A stretch of 64,000 bases of DNA from Saprospiraceae bacterium (lineage in GTDB: Bacteria > Bacteroidota > Bacteroidia > Chitinophagales > Saprospiraceae): the NCBI GenBank assembly GCA_020627705.1, contig JAHDGJ010000016.1, positions 3,796-67,795 of the forward strand. The letters run 5' to 3'. Below the pieces are notes generated by a model that saw nothing but the letters and a program-made list of their open reading frames with translations, did not search any database and was not told the DNA's origin. Both the position numbers and the translations under genes were made by a program. Positions 3,001 to 32,756 of the stretch are shown here, in pieces (positions within the stretch are counted from its first letter, which is position 1; each line of letters opens with the position of its first letter).

Positions 3001-5897
3001 GGGATGGACCAATTGAAACAATTTCAGAGGGCTCCACTATCTATACTTTTGTACCAACTATGGGCCAATGCGCCACCGAAACCACCATGGCGATCATGGT
3101 TAACAACTGCAGTGCTGATTGTGAAATATTTATTGAAAATTGTCCTCCAAATTTAGGGAATCCCAACTGTGGGTCAGGCGAGATCTCTAATATTGGGGTT
3201 GTTGGTGGGGATGAAATTGCTGCTAATGGAGAGCAGGTATGTTTGGATATTACGCTTTCTAATGTGATGGATCTTCAATCCTTCACCCTAGAAATAAATT
3301 GGGATGAAACCTTATTAAGTTATTCTGGCACTCAAAATTTTTCAACTGAATTCTTCACCTTTGGGGCCAATTCTATTGGAGATGTAAATGCATCCACTGG
3401 GGTCCTTACAGCGATTTGGTTTGATCCGACAGGTGCACAACCCGTTACGCTGAACAATGATGAAGTTATTTTTGAATTGTGTTTTGATGTCATTGGTACA
3501 AATGGATCATTTGCTGATGTGAGTTTTGGATTTGTTGAATTTGGAGATGGCATGAGCATGCCTTTGGACTTTTTTACAGACTGTGGCTCTGTGGATATTT
3601 GTGCGGGTTCAACCATCCTTGAAGTGGTGTGTAGTGATAATGGTACGCCAGATATAAATGACGACGATTCATTTAGTTTCGAGCTTTTAGTTAATAACGG
3701 TGGTAATGCTGGAAGTTGGATTGCGAATGATCCTAATTCTACTTCTCAACAATATGGAGTTGTTCAAACCTTTGGACCATTCTTGATATCTGATGGCGGG
3801 TTCTTGTTGACAATTCAAGATCTTTTGGATCCTTCTTGTTTTGATCAGATTCAAATCGATCCTCCTATGACTTGTTCGGAAGATGCGTGCATGATAGATT
3901 CCCCTCAGTTGGCTGATGTCATTTGTAATGATAATGGAACGATTGGTGTACCGGAAGACGACTTTGTAACTTTCACTTTAAATCCAACGGGTGCAGGATT
4001 ATCCGGCAATTATATTTTAGACCCACCAGTAGCAACACCTGCAGGTGGTGCCTATGGTATGCCGACTACCTTTACTATGCCTCAAGGATCCGCAGATGGT
4101 TCTACGCCAACTTTGTTTGTCATACAAGACGCCATTGATACAGATTGTATTATAAACGTAAGTTTTGTGAATCCACCATCTTGTTCTACGGATTGCTCGG
4201 ATGCTCCGACAGCAGGGACAGGTATTGATACCATCTTTTGTGGTAGAGATGATGAGTTTAATTTGTTTGAGTTACTTAATTCGTATGACCCAGGTGGGTT
4301 ATGGACACTAGGTACAGCGACGTTAACTTCTAGCGTAATCAATTTGGGAGCATTGGGCGAAAACACCTTCACGTATACCTATACCGTTGCCAACGGTTCT
4401 AACTGTGAGAATTCGGTATCAGTACAGATAATAAATGAGAAAAATATAATTATTGATGATTTGACTTTGAGCGAATGTGACTTTGTAATACTTCCAGAAA
4501 TTACAGGGACCAATTTGACAGATGTGAATTATTATTCTTCTCAGTTTGGACAAGGTCAAATTTATTTGCCGGGAGATACCTTATTTGAAACTACCGCCTT
4601 GTTTATGTACGATGAATTTGATCAGTGTATAGGTACAAATACGGCTTTTATCAATATCGAAATCCCTGACATTGATAATCCAAGTCCAGTATTAGAGTGT
4701 GAGTATTATGTGTTGCCTGAGATCACAGGTGAATTTTTTACAACAAGTGTTGGTTATTTCTCGGAACCCAATGGAATGGGTCAAACGTATAGCCCGGGGG
4801 ACACTATTTTTTCTTTCACTGAAATCTACATGTACCACAATGATGGAGAATGTTTCGATGAAGAATTATTAAGCATCACTATTGTTAGTGGAAATGAGTT
4901 TGTTTTGGATTCGGCGATTTGTCCTGGAGATGAGATTATAGTCAATGGCAATGTTTATAACGAAACTAATTTGGTCGGAGAAGAAGTACTTAGTTCTTCT
5001 ATTGGTTGCGATAGTTTGGTAGTCATTGATTTGCAGTTGTTGCAAAATCCCGAAGGTCTGTTAAACACATCCATATGTGAGGGAGATAACTTTGCGTTTG
5101 GGGGTGTTGTTTTTGATGAAAACAATACATCACAACAAGTTACCTTGTCAAATATGGCAACCAATGGTTGTGATAGTTTGGTCAACGTAACTGTAGAGGT
5201 CTTAACGAATCAAATGAGCGTTTTCGACACGCTTCTTTGTCAAGGAGAATCCTTTACCCTTGGTGGAATTACATTTTCGGAATCCAATTTGAGTGGAGAA
5301 GTTATGCTTGAGGGCATGGCTTCCAATGGATGTGATAGCATTATTTCGGTTACGGCCAATTTTGAAGACCCTGATTTTTCATTTCTTCTTACACCATTGG
5401 AAGACATGATTGCCCAACAACTAGTCATCGACCTCAATATTACACCGATGGATTTATTATGGGAACCTGCTGTGGGTCTCAGCTGCGATGATTGCTTAAA
5501 TCCAATCGTTACAATAAATGCAGATCAAGACTATACCCTCACAGTGACGTATGGTAACGGCTGTGAATTTGTTATTCCGTTTTCCATCGAATCCATTCGT
5601 GAGCTTTTTTACTACATACCGAATGCCATCAGTCCAAATAAAGATGGGTTTAACGATGTCTTTTTTATCCAAGGCTTGAGTGATGTAGCTCGAGTAGATG
5701 AAATTGCTGTGTATGATCGTTGGGGAGAGTTGGTCTTTAGTAATTCGGATACTGCACTTAATGATCCGGATCAAGGATGGAATGGTAAGTTTAAAAAACA
5801 ATATGTAGTGCCAGGGGTCTATGCTTATTATGTCCGAATAATAGAAGGAGATAATACGGCACTCGAATTTACAGGAGACCTAACGGTGTTTAGGTAA
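3..5897 (+). CDS. Giant secreted repeat protein with T9SS type B C-terminal domain (5' end outside window)
   Basis: The frame is open to the left edge and the first codons already belong to a repeat unit, so this is the 3' part of a larger gene. About two thirds of the visible protein consists of Cys-containing units of roughly 60-70 residues in two alternating types: one built around LPxTSLEGFxGSWSPAFDPN and GQCA, the other around LGPYCVGDTPD and a CGC turn followed by a PICE...WT.GDG module. Around residues 1065-1200 a cohesin-like beta-sandwich (segment with ANGEQVCLDITLSNV) interrupts the repeats. Three shorter repeats with CDSL/CDSI turns follow. The last 90 residues (PNAISPNKDGFND, YDRWGELVF, WNGKF, PGVYAYYV) are a type B sorting domain (gliding-motility CTD family), which targets proteins through T9SS to the cell surface or medium. 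Probable adhesin or matrix protein; no catalytic domain is seen. Confidence 0.9.
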   Translation, partial: SDPLPATSLEGFTGSWSPAFDPNTTTTYTFIPDAGQCASDGMLTITIDPATAATFNGLPSQCAGEGNPLPTTSLEGFLGIWTPAFDPNATMTYTFIPNAGQCASDGILTITVDPLIIPSFTQLGDYCVGDTPDMLPTTSTNGITGSWDGPIDTSSPSSTSYTFMPDAGQCADQGTMLITVNDCGCTDPATIAINSIFPICENENIDLVAILGGSATMITWTSTGDGSFSNINDLTPTYTPGANDILGGSVVLTATTDDPDGALPSCSAVEATVQLLIDLQQASNFAQLGPYCVGDTPDVLPMVSINGISGSWDGPISTNTAGDITYTFTPDNGQCAQDATMMISVIECGCADPALLSITGILPICENETIQLTGGLDGSSSSAIWTTNGDGVFMDPADPQTIYTPGVGDIANGTILLTLTSNDPDGAGPCEPAEIGVNVSIEEIMVSTFDALASQCLGGNDPLPTMSLEGFTGSWSPAFDPNASATYTFTPDAGQCADTGMLTVTIDAPIVSSFNTLPSQCAGESNPLPLTSLEGFVGSWSPAFDPNITATYTFAPDMGQCALEGMLTVEIDPLITATFDGIPNQCIGESNPLPATSLEGFTGSWNPPFDTNNTTTYTFTPDIGQCAAEGMLMVTVDQLTVPDFAQLGPYCVGDTPDVLAGTSSNGITGVWDAAITTDTPGSITYLFMPDDGQCADDASMTIIVNDCGCADPASVSIDPVDWICQNELIDLNAVLSGSASSVTWTTLGQGNFTNTTALSTTYLISGFDIQNGQVTLMATTNDPDGSGPCAAAVAEMTVEIRQLIEPEFTQLGTYCVGETPDVLPTTSLNGITGSWNGPIDTSMPGVPSYLFVADPGQCAESYQMSIAILECDCMDPPTISINDINPICEGESIDLMAVIGGGASMVSWVSAGDGNFSNISAQNPTYTPGPNDIVNGSVVLTATTDDPDGALTNCMEESAMVQVEVTPQELPQFVQLGPYCIGDTPDALSMTSTNGIIGTWDGPIETISEGSTIYTFVPTMGQCATETTMAIMVNNCSADCEIFIENCPPNLGNPNCGSGEISNIGVVGGDEIAANGEQVCLDITLSNVMDLQSFTLEINWDETLLSYSGTQNFSTEFFTFGANSIGDVNASTGVLTAIWFDPTGAQPVTLNNDEVIFELCFDVIGTNGSFADVSFGFVEFGDGMSMPLDFFTDCGSVDICAGSTILEVVCSDNGTPDINDDDSFSFELLVNNGGNAGSWIANDPNSTSQQYGVVQTFGPFLISDGGFLLTIQDLLDPSCFDQIQIDPPMTCSEDACMIDSPQLADVICNDNGTIGVPEDDFVTFTLNPTGAGLSGNYILDPPVATPAGGAYGMPTTFTMPQGSADGSTPTLFVIQDAIDTDCIINVSFVNPPSCSTDCSDAPTAGTGIDTIFCGRDDEFNLFELLNSYDPGGLWTLGTATLTSSVINLGALGENTFTYTYTVANGSNCENSVSVQIINEKNIIIDDLTLSECDFVILPEITGTNLTDVNYYSSQFGQGQIYLPGDTLFETTALFMYDEFDQCIGTNTAFINIEIPDIDNPSPVLECEYYVLPEITGEFFTTSVGYFSEPNGMGQTYSPGDTIFSFTEIYMYHNDGECFDEELLSITIVSGNEFVLDSAICPGDEIIVNGNVYNETNLVGEEVLSSSIGCDSLVVIDLQLLQNPEGLLNTSICEGDNFAFGGVVFDENNTSQQVTLSNMATNGCDSLVNVTVEVLTNQMSVFDTLLCQGESFTLGGITFSESNLSGEVMLEGMASNGCDSIISVTANFEDPDFSFLLTPLEDMIAQQLVIDLNITPMDLLWEPAVGLSCDDCLNPIVTINADQDYTLTVTYGNGCEFVIPFSIESIRELFYYIPNAISPNKDGFNDVFFIQGLSDVARVDEIAVYDRWGELVFSNSDTALNDPDQGWNGKFKKQYVVPGVYAYYVRIIEGDNTALEFTGDLTVFR

Positions 5898-25218: not shown

Positions 25219-26064
25219 ATGGATTTATTTTTCCTTTTTGATATGCCTGATTTTGCCTCTTCGGCAGTTTGGTTGAGTTTACTCACACTAACTTTTTTAG
25301 AAATTGTTCTGGGAGTAGATAATATAATATTCATAAGTATTGCGGCAAGCAAGTTGCCCCAAGAAGAACAGAAGAAAGCTACAAACATTGGATTGATTCT
25401 GGCCATGGTTATGCGAATCGCATTATTGTTTGGCATCAGTTGGTTAATTGCGATGAAAGATCCATGGATTTCCATCGATTGGTCGTGGTTAAAAGCTGGC
25501 TTTTCTGGTCAAAGTTTAATACTTATCGTGGGAGGAATTTTTCTGCTTTATAAAAGCGTATCTGAGATTCACCACAAATTAGAAGGAGATGATCATTCGC
25601 AAAGTGGAGATGGTGCTAAAAAGAAAAGCAGTTTATCCAATGCGATCATTCAGATAACCTTGATAAATATCGTGTTTTCTTTTGATTCTATATTGACTGC
25701 CGTAGGGATGACAAATGGTATTGATGGAGCCCTTGTTATAATGGTCATTGCAGTTGTTTTATCTGTTTTGATAATGATGATTTTTGCCGTTCCGGTTGGA
25801 AGATTTGTTAATCGTCACCCAACCATTCAAATGCTAGGTCTGTCCTTTTTAATTCTCATAGGTTTTATGTTAATACTTGAAGGAGGGCATTTGGCACATT
25901 TATCTATTTTTGATTCCGAAATTGGTGTTGTTCCAAAGGGGTATTTGTACTTCTCCATTGCCTTTGCTCTACTGGTAGAATTCTTAAACATGAGATTAAG
26001 AAAAAATAAGCCTGTTCAACTAAATACTTACTCGGAAGAAGCCGAAAGAAAAGGAGTAATTTGA
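25219..26064 (+). CDS. TerC family integral membrane protein
   Basis: 281 residues, seven predicted membrane helices. The family signature LEIVLGVDNIIFISI (Glu and Asp-Asn in the first helix) and its second-half counterpart IVFSFDSILTAVGM with conserved Asp are both present. TerC/Alx/YkoY proteins have been linked to metal (notably manganese) efflux and to metalation of exported enzymes. The stop overlaps the following apbE start, which suggests co-translation. Confidence 0.9.
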   Translation: MDLFFLFDMPDFASSAVWLSLLTLTFLEIVLGVDNIIFISIAASKLPQEEQKKATNIGLILAMVMRIALLFGISWLIAMKDPWISIDWSWLKAGFSGQSLILIVGGIFLLYKSVSEIHHKLEGDDHSQSGDGAKKKSSLSNAIIQITLINIVFSFDSILTAVGMTNGIDGALVIMVIAVVLSVLIMMIFAVPVGRFVNRHPTIQMLGLSFLILIGFMLILEGGHLAHLSIFDSEIGVVPKGYLYFSIAFALLVEFLNMRLRKNKPVQLNTYSEEAERKGVI

Positions 26065-27101
26065 GAATACCCACGGTCATATATAGTCTAGTAGTTTGTT
26101 TTCTCTTTGGATGCAAAAACGAAGTAGAACAACTTAGTTATGATTCCATCAAGGGGTTGACTATGGGCACGTATTATAAAGTAACTTTTTCGAAAGGAGA
26201 GGAGGAGTTAAAAAAAGAAGAAATTGAAGCTTTGCTACTTGACTTAAACAGCGCGTTGAGTACGTATCAAGAAAACTCTATCATTTCCCAATTTAATCTA
26301 AACCAACTCACGAGCTTGGATCTAAATGTGCCTACCCATAAATATTTTTATGAGGTCTTAGAGCGCTCCAAGTACTTTTACAATATTTCTGAAAATTATT
26401 TTGATCCTACGGTAATGCCATTGGTCAACTTTTATGGTTTTGGATATATGGGGCGAGAGGAGGACAACGAGTTGGACATGACTAAGATTCAAAATATTTT
26501 GGACTATGTTTCTTTGGATAAATTAAATTGGCAAAAACAAGAATCACAAATTGTTTTAGAAAAGGATAATCCTAAATTAGAGTTGGACTTTTCAGCCATT
26601 GCTAAAGGCTATGGCGTAGACATCATCTCTACAATGCTGGAAAAGAAAAAGATCAAAAACTTTCTGGTTGATATCGGAGGAGAAATCAATGTCAAAGGGA
26701 AAAACCCAAAGGGGAAAAATTGGAATTTGGGTATTTCTCGACCCTTGGATCATGCAGATTATAATGATGCTCAAATAATTGTAACACTGTCAGATAAGGC
26801 TTTAGCCACGAGTGGTAATTACCGTAATTTTTACGAACTCAATGGAGTAAAATATGGACATACCATAAATCCAATTACTGGCCGGAGCCAAAGATCCAAT
26901 TTGCTAGGCACTTCTATCATAGCTTCAAATTGTATGGATGCTGATGCCTTAGCCACGGTCTGTATGGTAATTGGTCTTGAAAAATCCAAAGCTCTTTTGG
27001 ACCAGCTCGATGATTTTGAAGGCTGCCTAATCTATAATGAAAGCGATAGTCTTCAATTGCATTACAGCAAAGGTTTTGAAGCGTATGTCAAAAATCAATA
27101 G
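26061..27101 (+). CDS. apbE: FAD:protein FMN transferase (ApbE) lipoprotein
   Basis: 346 residues. The TTG at 26061 overlaps the terC stop and gives a lipoprotein signal (YSLVVCFLFGC). ApbE blocks: GLTMGTYYKVTF, SLDLNVPTHKYFYEV, LDFSAIAKGYGVD, FLVDIGGEINVKG, HTINPITGR and the Mg-binding ALATVCMVIG. The enzyme attaches FMN through a phosphoester bond to Thr or Ser of exported flavoproteins such as NqrB/NqrC or RnfG. No such target lies in this window. Confidence 0.92.
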   Translation: MRIPTVIYSLVVCFLFGCKNEVEQLSYDSIKGLTMGTYYKVTFSKGEEELKKEEIEALLLDLNSALSTYQENSIISQFNLNQLTSLDLNVPTHKYFYEVLERSKYFYNISENYFDPTVMPLVNFYGFGYMGREEDNELDMTKIQNILDYVSLDKLNWQKQESQIVLEKDNPKLELDFSAIAKGYGVDIISTMLEKKKIKNFLVDIGGEINVKGKNPKGKNWNLGISRPLDHADYNDAQIIVTLSDKALATSGNYRNFYELNGVKYGHTINPITGRSQRSNLLGTSIIASNCMDADALATVCMVIGLEKSKALLDQLDDFEGCLIYNESDSLQLHYSKGFEAYVKNQ

Positions 27102-27162
27102 ATTTTTTTTGTTCGCTTATCAAGCAAATTAATTCGATTATTTTGTGGTCTAAATCATAACT

Positions 27163-27987
27163 ATGGAATTGCAATTTAACTTGGATCGTGATCTTGTTTT
27201 TTTTGATATTGAAGCGACAGGACTAAATGTTTTAAAAGATCGCATTATTCAGATTGCGCTTATCAAATATCCCAAGGATGGGGGACCAGCCCTTGAGAAA
27301 GAATTAATGATAAATCCAGGCGTTCCTATTTCTAAAGAAAGCTATGCGGTACATGGGATCTCTGCTGGTGATGTAGCCAACAAACCTACTTTTCAACAGG
27401 TAAGTCAGGAAATTTTCGATTTTATTGGTGATGCGGATCTGTCTGGATACAACCTGAACAGATTTGATGTGCCGATGTTAATGGAAGAATTTGAAAGAGT
27501 TGGAACCAGCTTTGAGATTGATCATCGTAGGATTATTGATGTTCAAACTATTTTTTACAAAATGGAGCCACGAACCTTAGTGGCTGCATATCGATTTTAT
27601 TGTGACAAAGAACTGGAAGGAGCCCATGATGCCCTTGCCGATGTGCGGGCAACTGCAGATGTTTTGAAGGGTCAAATAGCAAAATATAACCAAAGAGATT
27701 TTACACTTCCTACTGGTGAAGTCTTACAAAATCCAGTGCGTAATGATATGTCATCTTTGTATGACTTTACCCATAACAAGCAATCTGTTGATGTAACCAA
27801 TCGTTTGAAGTATAACTCAGAAGGCGTAGTCGTATTTAACTTCGGCAAATATATAGGCCAGCCGGTTGGACAGGTGCTTTCACGAGACAAACAGTATTAC
27901 CACTGGATTTTAGAAAAAGATTTTTCTGTTCAGGTAAAAAAAGGAGTTCAAAAAATCTTAAGGGATTATGAAAAAGCAAATTCGTAA
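27163..27987 (+). CDS. DnaQ-type 3'-5' exonuclease
   Basis: 274 residues. DEDDh exonuclease motifs: VFFDIEATGLN (I), SGYNLNRFDVPMLMEEF (II) and GAHDALADVRAT (III). The C-terminal 75 residues (VFNFGKYIGQPVGQVL, YYHWILEKDF) form a small domain of the DUF3820/ExoX C-terminal type, which is frequent in Bacteroidota exonucleases of this kind. Likely role: DNA repair or proofreading-like trimming. Its last 20 nt overlap the start of the MbnP-like gene, an unusual coupling of unrelated functions. Confidence 0.88.
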   Translation: MELQFNLDRDLVFFDIEATGLNVLKDRIIQIALIKYPKDGGPALEKELMINPGVPISKESYAVHGISAGDVANKPTFQQVSQEIFDFIGDADLSGYNLNRFDVPMLMEEFERVGTSFEIDHRRIIDVQTIFYKMEPRTLVAAYRFYCDKELEGAHDALADVRATADVLKGQIAKYNQRDFTLPTGEVLQNPVRNDMSSLYDFTHNKQSVDVTNRLKYNSEGVVVFNFGKYIGQPVGQVLSRDKQYYHWILEKDFSVQVKKGVQKILRDYEKANS

Positions 27988-28762
27988 TTTTTGTGTTTTT
28001 CTTTCGAGCGTTTTACTTCTGGTAAGCTGTTATGAACCTATAAAAGATTGTTTAAATCCTCAAGCTGAAAATTATAATGTTTTAGCAGATGAAGCATGCG
28101 ATGATTGTTGTGACTTTCCAGAGATTACGCTAAGATTCAATACGCTCGTAGGCGATTCTACCTATACACGTCAAGATACATTTGTTGATGACTTTGGAAA
28201 TTTATTTAAATTGGATCAGTTTGAATTTTTTCTAGATAATATACGATTGCTCTCAGGGGAAGAGGAGACTGCTATTCTTGATAGCTTACGTTTTTCGGAT
28301 GGGACTGGTGAAGTGGAACGCTTAAATGATATTGTACTTTATGTTTTTGGAAAAACGAGTTATCAAATTGGCAATTTTAATTCGGTAGCAACATTTGATA
28401 AAATAAAATTCGATTTCGGTTTGGATATCGAAAATCTAGATTTTGAATCTCTACCTGTTGGAAACGTGTTGATTCCTATTGAAGATAGTTTGTACAATAA
28501 CAACCGATTTTATAGCAATCAAATTGATGTTTTAAGTGGTGATGAATTTTTAAATAAGCAAATCACTAGTTGTACATGGCCTATTACGAGCGTAGAATTG
28601 GAGTTTGTTGAGCCGGTCACTTCGGAATTGGGAAAGGACTTTTTTGTTACTATTCCTTTTGATTTTAGCGTTTGGATGGCTGGAATAAATGTCCTTTTGG
28701 ATACGCAAGAAGAAATTTGTAATAAACTACAAGTAAATATGCCTGCCGCATTTGGATTATGA
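27968..28762 (+). CDS. MbnP-like copper-binding lipoprotein
   Basis: 264 residues with a lipoprotein signal (FLSSVLLLVSC). The body matches the MbnP-like layout: ITLRFNTLVGD at the start, FKLDQFEFFLDNIRLL, KIKFDFGLDI and a C-terminal beta region ending NKLQVNMPAAFG. MbnP family proteins bind copper after one Trp is oxidised to kynurenine by the di-haem partner MbnH; Trp residues are present in SCTWPITSVEL and FSVWMAGINV. The next gene, 26 nt downstream, encodes exactly such a di-haem protein. Which Trp, if any, is modified cannot be told here. Confidence 0.78.
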   Translation: MKKQIRNFCVFLSSVLLLVSCYEPIKDCLNPQAENYNVLADEACDDCCDFPEITLRFNTLVGDSTYTRQDTFVDDFGNLFKLDQFEFFLDNIRLLSGEEETAILDSLRFSDGTGEVERLNDIVLYVFGKTSYQIGNFNSVATFDKIKFDFGLDIENLDFESLPVGNVLIPIEDSLYNNNRFYSNQIDVLSGDEFLNKQITSCTWPITSVELEFVEPVTSELGKDFFVTIPFDFSVWMAGINVLLDTQEEICNKLQVNMPAAFGL

Positions 28763-28788
28763 CAACATCTCACTTAATTTGATGTTTA

Positions 28789-29904
28789 TTGAATATTATG
28801 AGAGTTTTGTGTGTTCTACTTTTGTTTTGTCTTTTTTTGACGCCCTCATGTAAGGATCCTTCTCCTATGGAGGATTTGGATTTAACTCATATTCCTTATG
28901 ATCCTGTGACTTTTAACCCTGAGATAGACAATCCTACGTTTCCACAATTAGAACAACCTCAGGACAATCAGATGACTGTCGATGGAATTGATTTAGGTCG
29001 ACATCTTTTTTATGATCCAATATTGTCTGGAGACTTGAGCATGTCGTGTTCGAGTTGTCATTTGCCCTCTGGAAGCTTCACTGATAACCTTGCCTTAAGT
29101 AAAGGCATTGATGGCATTGAAGGGACACGGAGTTCCATGAGCTTACTTAATGTTGGTTTTAATTACAGGGGGCTGTTTTGGGATGGAAGAATTTTTAGTT
29201 TGGAAGAACAAGCCTTACTACCAGTCGAAGACCCCATTGAGTTACATGCTTCTTGGCCGAATGTTGTACAAAGACTGCAAGAAAGTGAATTATATCCTGA
29301 AAAATTCAGAAAAGCCTTTGGCATTGATTCCAAAGATCAGATAACTAAAGACCTTGCCGCTAAAGCTTTGGCGCAATTTGAACGCTCTTTGATAAGTTCG
29401 AAAAATTCAAAATTTGATAAAGTTCTTCTCGGTGAAGATGTATTTAATGGACAAGAATTATTGGGTTATGAGATGTTTTTTGATATCTATCAAGGATCAA
29501 ACCCTGACATACCTGATGCACAATGTTTTCATTGCCATGATCAACCTTTGTTTACTAATAATGCCTATGAGAATAATGGTTTAGATGAGTCTCAAACTTA
29601 CGAGGGCTTTACGGATTTAGGGCATGGTAAAGTCACAGGGATTATTGGTGACAACGGGAAATTTAGAGTACCTACTCTAAGAAATATAGAACATTCGGCT
29701 CCATACATGCACGATGGGCGCTTTGAAACCTTAGATGAGGTGATGGATCACTATATAAGTGGTGGTCATTTTTCGCCAACACGAAGCACCTTCATGGATT
29801 CAATTGAGCTAAATACAGTCCAAAAAGAAGCAATGATTGCATTCTTGAAGACATTAAGTGACCCAAATTTTAATGAAAATCCAGATTTCTCCAATCCTTT
29901 TTAA
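28789..29904 (+). CDS. Di-haem cytochrome c peroxidase family lipoprotein (MbnH-like)
   Basis: 371 residues with a lipoprotein signal (LLLFCLFLTPSC). Two haem c sites: MSCSSCH and CFHCHD. The family blocks are GRHLFYDPILSGD, SLLNVGFNYRGLFWDG, VEDPIELH, and PTLRNIEHSAPYMHDGRF. The nearest neighbour encodes an MbnP-like protein, which points to the MbnH role (Trp to kynurenine oxidation of the partner) rather than H2O2 detoxification. Distinguishing the two needs structural comparison. Probably transcribed with the MbnP-like gene. Confidence 0.88.
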   Translation: MNIMRVLCVLLLFCLFLTPSCKDPSPMEDLDLTHIPYDPVTFNPEIDNPTFPQLEQPQDNQMTVDGIDLGRHLFYDPILSGDLSMSCSSCHLPSGSFTDNLALSKGIDGIEGTRSSMSLLNVGFNYRGLFWDGRIFSLEEQALLPVEDPIELHASWPNVVQRLQESELYPEKFRKAFGIDSKDQITKDLAAKALAQFERSLISSKNSKFDKVLLGEDVFNGQELLGYEMFFDIYQGSNPDIPDAQCFHCHDQPLFTNNAYENNGLDESQTYEGFTDLGHGKVTGIIGDNGKFRVPTLRNIEHSAPYMHDGRFETLDEVMDHYISGGHFSPTRSTFMDSIELNTVQKEAMIAFLKTLSDPNFNENPDFSNPF

Positions 29905-29933
29905 TTAGATTTCACGAACACTTTAATTTTGCA

Positions 29934-29941
29934 AATATCTA
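29934..29941 (+). promoter_or_regulatory. Candidate -7 box upstream of the mini-ORF units
   Basis: TAATTTTG fits TAnnTTTG and is the best -7 match I found before the tandem RNA units. No TTG lies at the expected -33 position, so this is weak evidence for a start near 29948. Confidence 0.25.
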
Positions 29942-30060
29942 TAAATCAAGTATTTATGGTGATAATTGTTAAATTTAATTCCATATTTTTAGAACAATAG
30001 ATTTATTTTGTCTTTGTAATCAAGGGAGTTTGTAGCGACTATTGTATTATGAATTTTATT

Positions 30061-30165
30061 CTTAGTTATCTGGTAAAAGAACCAGTGATTAAAATTCAAA
30101 TATGTTCATGGGATTATAACGTAAGAGGAGAGAATAATTGGAACGCTTTTCTCCTCTTACAATTT
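30061..30165 (+). ncRNA. Candidate structured RNA unit 1: hairpin, mini-ORF, terminator-like hairpin
   Basis: A small hairpin (30070-30074 pairing with 30081-30085) is followed by the 20-nt core ATATGTTCATGGGATTATAA at 30100-30119 and then by a 10-bp perfect hairpin (30121-30130 with 30151-30160, extendable inward). The core contains ATG TTC ATG GGA TTA TAA, a five-codon ORF. The identical core in the same structural setting recurs at 30267-30286. No protein gene covers this stretch. It could be a small RNA, a leader peptide or an attenuator-like unit. Confidence 0.5.
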
Positions 30166-30224
30166 TACTCTCAGACAATAAAAAAGAAAGATTGAGTTTT
30201 AAATATATTTTGGTTTAAATGAGT

Positions 30225-30325
30225 TTATTCGCCTTTATCTCTTAAAAAAGGCAAAACCGATTTTGGATATGTTCATGGGATTATAATTTGCAAGTGGTTA
30301 CTCCAGTAACCACTTTTTTTTGTCC
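30225..30325 (+). ncRNA. Candidate structured RNA unit 2: hairpin, mini-ORF, intrinsic terminator
   Basis: GCCTTT at 30231-30236 pairs with AAAGGC at 30247-30252. The 20-nt core identical to unit 1 follows at 30267-30286 (mini-ORF 30269-30286), then a textbook intrinsic terminator: 10-bp stem 30292-30301 with 30306-30315, a TCCA loop and at least six T. Outside the core, the two units do not share obvious sequence, only the order of parts. This argues for selection on the core rather than a recent duplication. Confidence 0.55.
30292..30321 (+). terminator. Intrinsic terminator of RNA unit 2
   Basis: AAGTGGTTAC, loop TCCA, GTAACCACTT and a T run. Perfect 10-bp stem. Confidence 0.85.
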
Positions 30326-30635
30326 TAACATATATGTTAAAATTGTAATATATTTTTCAATTTTAGCCTGTATGGCATGCTTTGTGCAATTCTTCGTATA
30401 ACCAGTTTACACGACTAATAACAGTATTCAGAAAGACCACACGCTTCTTTTGCGCAAACTCTTTCGTTGTGCGAGCCCTTAATGATCTAACATCCCTTAA
30501 TTGTGACTCTCACTTAATTTACTGTGTTTTAGAATTTTGATGTGATCATTCATTTGGTCAAGGTCAAATATGTTTCGTTTGAGTTATCAGCTCAGATGTG
30601 ATTATTTAAATTTTAAACACTAAACCGCATTAAAA
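30326..30635. other. AT-rich leader region before the T9SS protein gene
   Basis: No ORF, strong hairpin or consensus promoter was found. A palindrome TTTGCGCAAA lies near 30449-30458. The region presumably holds the promoter and 5' leader of the gene at 30636. Confidence 0.3.
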
Positions 30636-32756
30636 ATGAGACCGATTTTATTACTCTTAATGTTATGCGCGAACTTTACAAACAATAACCTAAATGCGCA
30701 ATGCGCTTTAACTGAATTTACTATCGACATGTCGGATGATTTTGGAGATGGTTGGACAGGAAATCAAGTGAGCATTAAAAAATTGAATGCTACTTGTGGC
30801 CAAGAAACTATTTATGGACCTTTTAGCTTGGATAGAGGGCCTGATCAACAACAATCCGTTTGTTTACCTGATGGTTGCTATTACATTAGTACTGTGGATG
30901 GTGACTTTAAGGAAGAGATTTCTTGGTCTATTCGTCAAAACAGTAATCAGCAAATTTGGGCAGAACATACCACTTCACACCCTTCCAACTTGTTAGTTGT
31001 GGGGAATGCAGATTGTTCTTTTATCGGATGTACGGATCAGACAGCTAACAATTATGACCCGAACGCTACGTGCAGTATCGGATCATGTCAGTATTTGGCT
31101 GTTTACAATGACATTTGTGACGGTGCAATGCCTTTAGAATGTGGAGCAACCAATGTGAATGGTTCTACGGAAAATGCTACAGCTGCCTTTTTTAATAACT
31201 GTAAAGCAAACAATATTGATGATGTTTGGTATTCGGTCTATGGGACGGGTGAAGAAATTAGGATTGAGATGTCTACTCAACAAGCAAACAGCGAAATTCA
31301 ACTTACGGTATTTACAACAAGTACCAATGATTGCAGCTCACCACTTGTTTGTAATAGTAATACGAGTTTTATTAATACAGGCGCCAATAAGAAAATGGCA
31401 ATTTGGGATTCCGAGGTTGGGACCATTTATTTTGTCAATGTAGGCTTCAAGCAGGATTTTGCAGATGAAACGTTTACATTAAATTCTACTTGTCCTGATT
31501 GTGGAGATCCAGTAGCACTAACCGCTGATTATGTCACAGAAAATAGGGCAATGATTGACTGGAAGTCTGCGAGTAGTATGGTTGACAATTGTGAGGTTTG
31601 GGTTTGCCCTTCAGGTGTTCCTTATACGGACCCTGCGTGCCGTTATCTTGACAACCAACATAGTCCGATGTACTTAAATAACTTGTTCTCTTGTTATGAT
31701 TATGATGTTTATTTGAGAGAACGATGTAATTCTACGCTAACCAATGTTGTTGGCCCGTTAAGTTTTACTACAGATAACGAAACAGAAAAGAATGTTCTTT
31801 ATTGTGGAGACCAGATGTGTTACCCTATGTGTGCTGCCAATGGTCAGCAGATTTATAGCTCGAGCGAAGATGAAAGTTGGACATTCTGTGCCGACGCTGG
31901 TATGTATCCTTCGGTTACATTTAATTATGTAGATATGGAATTGAGCACAAATTGTATTGCTGATTTTATTGAGATTTCTTCAGGAATTGGATACTCTGGA
32001 CCTCATTGCGGAAGTGATTTTCAGGCTGGAGGAAGTGAACTAGGAGCCGGAGACTGCTATTATAATCCTCAAATGGGCGGTTGTTTACAAGTTAGCTTTA
32101 AGTCTAACGCTTCAGTAGAGGCCAAAGGGTTTTGCATGGAGTTTGTGTGTAAAGCACCAGCCAGTGTAACAAACTGTAATGAGCTTCTACAAGCTTCAGT
32201 GCCTTTAAAAATGCTTTCGTTTGATGCCGAGGCAAAAGATGGAATGAATGTCATACAATGGGAAACGAGCAATGAATACAACGTGGATCTTCACCGACTA
32301 GAAAGAAGTACAGACGGGCATTCTTGGAAACTGTTAGTAGAGCATAAAGCTTTAAACGCACAAGAAGGCGTAAATCAATATTTGTCAAGGGACTTAACGC
32401 CTTTTTCAAAAACGTATTACAGACTCAAAACAATAGATTTTGATGGTTCGACTTACCATTCGGAGGTTCGGATCGTACAAAGAGATAAGCAGAGCCAAGA
32501 TCAGATTTTGGAAGCTGTTTATCCAAACCCTTCTTCAGGAGTGGTGTTTGTACAATTGAATGAATCATCAGAGGATGATTTAGAAATCGTTTTGATTGAT
32601 ATGGCAGGGAAGGAAACAATGAGAAGAACTTGGTCCAAAGGACAATATGATGTGCAGTTAAAATTGGATTTGACAGAAATTCAAACAGGTATATACTTTA
32701 TTCGAGCGATAAAAGGTACCTATCAAAGTACTCAAAAGCTAATTATTTCAAATTAG
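30636..32756 (+). CDS. Secreted protein with CUB-like domain and T9SS type A sorting domain
   Basis: 706 residues. Signal peptide (ILLLLMLCANFTNNNLNAQ), then a Cys-containing beta region (DDFGDGWTGNQVSIKKL), a calcium-type DPNAT loop, a fibronectin-III-like section and a CUB-like segment (WTFCADAGMYPSVTFNYVDM, DFIEISSGIGYSGPHCG). The C-terminal 80 residues (YPNPSSGVVFVQLN, DMAGKETMRRTW, QTGIYFIRAIKG) are a type A sorting domain, preceded by the usual WETSNEYNVDLHRLERS linker module. Surface or extracellular protein; no catalytic site recognised. Confidence 0.85.
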   Translation: MRPILLLLMLCANFTNNNLNAQCALTEFTIDMSDDFGDGWTGNQVSIKKLNATCGQETIYGPFSLDRGPDQQQSVCLPDGCYYISTVDGDFKEEISWSIRQNSNQQIWAEHTTSHPSNLLVVGNADCSFIGCTDQTANNYDPNATCSIGSCQYLAVYNDICDGAMPLECGATNVNGSTENATAAFFNNCKANNIDDVWYSVYGTGEEIRIEMSTQQANSEIQLTVFTTSTNDCSSPLVCNSNTSFINTGANKKMAIWDSEVGTIYFVNVGFKQDFADETFTLNSTCPDCGDPVALTADYVTENRAMIDWKSASSMVDNCEVWVCPSGVPYTDPACRYLDNQHSPMYLNNLFSCYDYDVYLRERCNSTLTNVVGPLSFTTDNETEKNVLYCGDQMCYPMCAANGQQIYSSSEDESWTFCADAGMYPSVTFNYVDMELSTNCIADFIEISSGIGYSGPHCGSDFQAGGSELGAGDCYYNPQMGGCLQVSFKSNASVEAKGFCMEFVCKAPASVTNCNELLQASVPLKMLSFDAEAKDGMNVIQWETSNEYNVDLHRLERSTDGHSWKLLVEHKALNAQEGVNQYLSRDLTPFSKTYYRLKTIDFDGSTYHSEVRIVQRDKQSQDQILEAVYPNPSSGVVFVQLNESSEDDLEIVLIDMAGKETMRRTWSKGQYDVQLKLDLTEIQTGIYFIRAIKGTYQSTQKLIISN

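Follow-up and report, generated by a model that had tools for sequence, protein, structure and literature searches.

Tandem cores in an intergenic region of the Saprospiraceae: a candidate FopS-like regulatory RNA with several identical seeds

Sponge RNAs of the CsrB and RsmX type repeat a short GGA motif between and on the hairpins of one RNA, and sibling small RNAs of the Qrr and LhrC type supply redundant identical seeds from separate genes. In the Bacteroidota, post-transcriptional control is known mainly from gut Bacteroides (PMC11697453). According to the same paper, FopS (RF04319) is a paralogous family of small RNAs described together with the RRM-1 protein RbpB in Bacteroides thetaiotaomicron, and the most significant binding motif of RbpB is one common to the seed-bearing small RNAs. 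The seed of FopS is conserved, single-stranded and complementary to a start-codon region, mRNAs being repressed by pairing close to the start codon, and is followed by an intrinsic terminator; the members are separate one-seed RNAs (the model has 71 positions), present in multiple copies within one Bacteroidota family, and a phage copy is reported (PMC11697453).

Here we describe an element of the Saprospiraceae that can be likened to FopS in several respects: a conserved core is followed by an intrinsic terminator, copies are multiple, confined essentially to one family and also found in phages, and the core may face start-codon regions. Its predicted transcripts carry two to five cores each and, unlike FopS, begin with a 5' hairpin behind a promoter of their own. 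With CsrB and RsmX it shares the repetition of a motif within one RNA, the motif here being a near-invariant core of 17-20 nt; the seeds of the Qrr and LhrC siblings lie in separate genes, whereas those of the core RNA would share one molecule. An earlier note on this DNA had known of no Bacteroidota family with such a layout. This no longer quite holds, as FopS has the single module (PMC11697453), though not in tandem. We consider a FopS-like, stand-alone, trans-acting regulatory RNA with several identical seeds to be the best explanation, with roughly even chances of being right.

The window, that is, the whole 64,000-nt stretch analysed (Saprospiraceae bacterium, contig JAHDGJ010000016.1), contains the element in an intergenic gap at 29905-30635, whose length of 731 bp agrees with the earlier reading. 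Upstream, the gap is bordered by a di-haem peroxidase gene (28789-29904; PF03150), for which the nearest NCBIfam model is the MbnH-like TIGR04039, with a score below its cut-off, and on the other side by a gene for a T9SS-sorted secreted protein (30636-32756). The parts of the locus are as follows.

30009..30016, + strand: -33-like promoter element TGTCTTTG, at the place of the TGTnnTTG pattern of aligned loci
30041..30052, + strand: -7 / start-site block ATTGTATTATGA, 9/12 to the consensus TTTGTATCGTGA
30049..30321, + strand: predicted transcript, its start placed by the -7 block and its end by the terminator
30062..30092, + strand: 5' hairpin, whose inner stem CTGGT/ACCAG encloses the loop AAAAGA (30070-30085)
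30100..30119, + strand: core copy 1
30121..30160, + strand: 14-bp hairpin 3' of core 1, without a T-run
30231..30252, + strand: small hairpin GCCTTT/AAAGGC 5' of core 2, from sequence reading and folding
30267..30286, + strand: core copy 2
30292..30321, + strand: intrinsic terminator, stem 30292-30315 and T-run 30314-30321 (eight T)

The 20-nt core, ATATGTTCATGGGATTATAA, is present in two exact copies, as had been noted, and this is well above chance: shuffling the dinucleotides of the window 100 times never produced two core matches, even with three mismatches allowed. Folding reproduces the small hairpin before and the strong hairpin after each core, and the sequences flanking the two units are unlike each other in the window although the order of parts is kept, again as first read. 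The folding z-score relative to shuffles is -4.7 for unit 1 and only -1.5 for the piece comprising the small hairpin, core and terminator of unit 2; the second strong hairpin, with its stem and eight T, has the form of the terminator that it had been taken for. A linker word between the units, ATTGAGTTTT (30191-30200), is shared with nine other loci, and these 10 among 112 are far more than chance would give. The order of the genes upstream of the RNA (25219-29904), among them ApbE, a 264-aa protein and the di-haem peroxidase, is kept in several genera. We take the first gene of this cluster to be TerC-like and the third, after ApbE, to be exonuclease-like; the 264-aa protein may be MbnP, although neither Pfam nor NCBIfam backs this name.

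The core is a feature of the family. With up to two mismatches it is found in 31 of 37 Saprospiraceae genomes and in none of the 23 genomes that represent the order's other families, and the reversed core pattern has no match in the same 60 genomes. In the source genome there is no third copy at up to two mismatches, and the two additional sites at three mismatches are about what chance predicts. A class-wide scan (395 genomes, 17-mer, one mismatch) matched five of the six family members; outside the family, 15 of 389 genomes had one match each, compared to eight genomes for the reversed control, which is near background. A scan of named genomes yielded at least 117 stretches with the core. 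Holders among the 80 titles listed include Saprospiraceae, Saprospirales, Lewinella/Lewinellaceae, Phaeodactylibacter, Flavilitoribacter and Chitinophagales, the other listed titles being metagenome-assembled genomes labelled only Bacteroidetes, Bacteroidota, Bacteroidia or bacterium. Among the holders are the culturable Phaeodactylibacter luteus (NZ_VOOR01000007.1) and Flavilitoribacter nigricans (NZ_PDUD01000010.1).

Distinct loci with two or more cores (up to two mismatches) number 112 in the retrieved stretches; they were deduplicated by identical sequence only and drawn from two overlapping sources. The number of cores is two in 83 of them, three in 21, four in six and five in two, with a median spacing of 163 nt. 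Across loci the core nucleotides are near-invariant while the flanks diverge, and selection on the core, as suggested from the window, is strongly supported by this divergence and by the 31 family genomes. The position is conserved as well: in 19 of 59 clusters, from several genera, the core locus lies behind an MbnH-like gene. In the core-less family genomes, no core was found near the best MbnH homologue, nor did the strict promoter pattern match, a pattern that also misses the promoter of the window.

We now consider how the units would be transcribed. The 12-nt block TTTGTATCGTGA is present at 9/12 or better before 74 of 111 first units, before none of 111 last units and in 3 of 111 shuffled sequences. 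When 73 loci are aligned on this -7 block alone, the pattern TGTnnTTG, which played no part in the alignment, emerges about 32-33 nt upstream (-32 to -25); five of its positions (T, G, T, T, T) are conserved at 97-100%, its final G at 75%. Since the promoter stands before the first unit only, the units probably form one RNA, of about 270 nt in the window, and promoter and terminator together point to a transcript at 30049-30321. The claim of two tandem RNA units is therefore right as to the tandem layout and wrong as to separate RNAs, the promoter being 5' of unit 1 only and hairpin 1 not being a terminator. The promoter pattern (TGTCNTTG, 18-22 nt, ATNTTTGTA) gives 32 matches in 12 genomes; by a hand count among the matches listed, 22 stand before core RNAs, nine before genes of large secreted proteins and one before neither.

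The architecture of the units was compared across loci by counting stems directly. A 5' hairpin with an A-rich loop precedes the core in 53 of 111 first units and 12 of 111 last units (about four in shuffles), with stem sequences that vary from locus to locus; among last units, the small hairpin seen before core 2 thus does not form a conserved class. Behind the core, perfect stems of 8 bp or longer are present in 99 of 113 first units (19 when shuffled), 25 of 38 middle units (6), 103 of 108 last units (20) and 42 of 44 single units (6). This hairpin has about 90 different arm sequences in the first and in the last class each, nearly one per locus, and as the stems are retained, the pairing is kept while the sequence is not. 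At least eight T in the 12 nt after the hairpin are found in 32 of 104 last units and 10 of 103 first units, and a TTGG-like word stands 5' of the core in 60 of 111 last and 23 of 111 first units. The two-unit form is probably old and not a fresh duplication. An alignment of 34 first units (MAFFT and RNAalifold) gave no pairs because the hairpin arms were misaligned; these units came from 50 preselected for the hairpin and hence are no test of it, the test being the A-rich-loop count over 111 units. Our RNA model R1 of the element is one of sequence only. In a variant that we call type B, the promoter and 5' hairpin are the same, the first core is worn and the later ones are strict, and GGGGATT or a similar word is repeated in the hairpin loops. 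In locus L162, from position 4713, the first core is interrupted by an inserted small hairpin.

Both cores of the window contain the reading frame Met-Phe-Met-Gly-Leu-stop, for which the earlier note had offered a leader peptide, a ribosome-stalling signal or an artefact of a small-RNA seed. The exact peptide and stop are encoded by 238 of 331 distinct units, which would fit a leader peptide. However, among the changes in the 15 coding nucleotides of these units, 10 are synonymous and 88 nonsynonymous, where a synonymous share of 13% is expected without coding constraint; there is no synonymous excess, and this pattern speaks against an attenuator. The first ATG is missing in 28 of the 331 units and the in-frame stop at codon 6 in 65. 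Moreover, no gene family is common downstream, and among the matches listed the neighbours vary in strand and family. The core is, judging from these substitutions, read as nucleotides and not as codons. We regard a leader or stalling peptide as highly improbable, and the seed is the best supported of the three original readings. As the neighbouring genes vary among the matches listed, action in trans is also likelier than in cis.

The comparison with FopS can be made at the level of the seed, FopS having been picked as the nearest analogue before its sequence was compared. The FopS seed UUCAUGGUAUUAGAUUU (Rfam consensus R1 seed) and the core UUCAUGGGAUUAUAAUU are identical at 14 of 17 positions. 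When the core is shuffled, a likeness at least as good arises in 230 of 20000 cases by mononucleotides and in 85 of 4000 by dinucleotides (p 0.01-0.02). RF04319 scores 16.4 bits in the window and 22.2 bits in locus L052, compared to a gathering cut-off of 56 bits. At gathering score, Rfam 15 found only tRNAs in the window and 14 loci (130,837 bases), and no Rfam family, by these searches, claims the core RNA. In a loose search, the gap matched one snoRNA family, two microRNA families and nothing else. Where FopS was scored, the loose matches that ranked above it (trpB, 27.0; Thr leader, 22.8) owe most of their score to the terminator and were discarded. The core RNA would work like FopS and is, by the Rfam cut-off, not a member of it. 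Seed-then-terminator is the layout of the last units, with stems of at least 8 bp in 103 of 108 and a T-rich tail, but the predicted openness does not support a single-stranded core: by ViennaRNA, it is 0.38 for the core and 0.39 for the rest of the RNA, i.e. no gain (272 cores). The source genome has two RRM_1 proteins of 95-96 aa. Proteins with RRM domains are common in the phylum, and their presence is therefore weak evidence.

In the preferred scenario, one dedicated promoter would give rise to one RNA, about 270 nt long in the window and longer elsewhere, displaying two to five cores, identical and 17-20 nt long, each set between hairpins, with the terminator last. Recognition would reside in the core: on the model of FopS, it would pair as a seed with the start-codon regions of mRNAs (complement AAUCCC-AUG-AAC) and might in addition offer a small RRM-type RNA-binding protein a place to dock, and the repetition would provide several seeds per molecule. 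In the retrieved stretches, duplexes of -14 kcal mol−1 or stronger are predicted at 22 of 651 starts, compared to 11.3 ± 5.8 in CAU-keeping shuffles, 4 of 60 of which reach this number; the excess at starts over internal ATGs was reached by none of the 60. Exact anti-core words near starts are not enriched, with one 10-mer in 835 regions (1.5 in shuffles) and eight 9-mers (5.9), so that the duplex excess and the word counts disagree. No full-length anti-core partner is conserved in 25 genomes among the matches listed, and a long antisense partner was thus rejected as a candidate. An apparent anti-core excess in 3' flanks was likewise set aside, being mostly cores themselves read from convergent genes. 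The seed reading, which draws on the likeness to FopS and the duplex excess at start codons, could in our estimate equally prove right or wrong; the length of the invariant core, which exceeds the usual need of a seed, counts against it.

The core is also found outside the tandem loci. Single core-hairpin modules are present at other host sites, and a related core with a terminator stands in the 3' ends of a group of secreted-protein genes (about 1010 aa; the two proteins tested have DUF7619 and a T9SS tail), preceded, after the stop codon, by an anti-core (ATAATCCCA in most copies) and a hairpin. The 18 copies found, from 14 of 199 family genomes, share a 38-nt string in these 3' ends without a single difference; in the same search, the genus of the window lacked such a locus. 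Of the 18 rows, 17 have an anti-core that fits at 10 or more of 13 places; two rows are duplicates, which leaves 15 of 16 distinct copies. At one place the anti-core matches GGGATTAT of the tandem RNA where its own cis core (GAGATTAT) mismatches, and at another place it matches the cis core. Loci L360-L364 and L378-L395 combine anti-core, hairpin, 38-nt string and terminator, and several of them share the promoter of the core RNA.

The exact 17-mer is present in 12 viral contigs and the reversed control in six. In five of the 12, but in none of the six controls, the core is followed within 50 nt by a perfect stem of 10 bp or longer; three further contigs, two of them near-identical, appear by eye to have weaker terminators, and another two, both with strong hairpins, came from a second viral scan (contigs with core and hairpin: L218-L224, L228, L269, L270). 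At 8 of 11 phage sites examined, the core lies no more than 25 nt after a same-strand stop codon. The gene 5' of the core in three viral contigs, two of them near-identical, is presumably tail-tube-like.

These additional sites bear on the other explanations. The cores could be binding sites through which the RNA titrates, in the manner of CsrB, a sequence-specific RNA-binding protein, whose other ligands would be mRNA 3' ends and phage mRNAs with a single core each. Identical cores in variable number, two to five per RNA, would fit such a sponge, as would the single modules in hosts and phages, the words repeated in the hairpin loops of type B loci, and an invariant stretch that exceeds any complementary partner among the matches listed. 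On the other hand, CsrA (PF02599) is absent from all 60 genomes, in a search that detected it in 3 of 14 control genomes, which rules out the CsrA system itself, and no protein was found to track the core. The sole family tested, which we call FAM6, is found in 26 of 30 genomes, including five of six core-less family members and 8 of 10 from outside, among the matches listed, and was rejected as the partner. We consider the sponge a real but lesser possibility. It is compatible with the seed reading, and both could hold.

If the core and its hairpin merely stabilised or terminated transcripts, with the tandem RNA as a by-product or strong version, the hairpin behind nearly all first, last and single units and the positions just past phage stop codons would be accounted for. 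The dedicated promoter and 5' hairpin of the tandem loci would not, nor would the first-unit hairpins, which mostly lack a T-run, and with a handful of modules per genome among the matches listed the element is not at most terminators; a 3'-end element is thus rather unlikely. Even less probable, and in our view quite doubtful, is that the element is a mobile or REP-like repeat which transposition or phages have distributed. Copies do occur in phage contigs, and at least one genome has an array (L066, reverse strand, about 4621-4820 as oriented: a row of near-identical 99-bp core units, part of it masked). The synteny behind the MbnH-like gene, the conserved order of promoter and units, and the few copies per genome among the matches listed argue against it.

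In the open-licence literature, we found no description of the core sequence or of a Saprospiraceae small RNA or terminator of this kind. Should the FopS-like reading be true, control of the FopS type would have a longer history or more inventive forms than has been assumed, and would extend to a large environmental family, there with phage copies and a promoter class of its own. A bolder and more speculative idea, which we hold to be improbable as a whole, is that the core is a private code of the family: the multivalent RNA would capture one sequence-specific protein, or pair many start codons, a small regulon of large secreted surface proteins would share the dedicated promoter of that RNA and have core and anti-core in its 3' ends, and phage modules would tap or titrate the same partner. 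The 112 multi-core loci, together with the loci that have core and anti-core in one predicted transcript, are comparative material for a search for that partner.

The FAM6 proteins, of about 470 aa and without a Pfam or NCBIfam match, flank several core and surface-protein loci. The type represented by L360:5320-6732 and its relatives can number some 30 in a single genome, and its members often lie beside secreted-protein genes.
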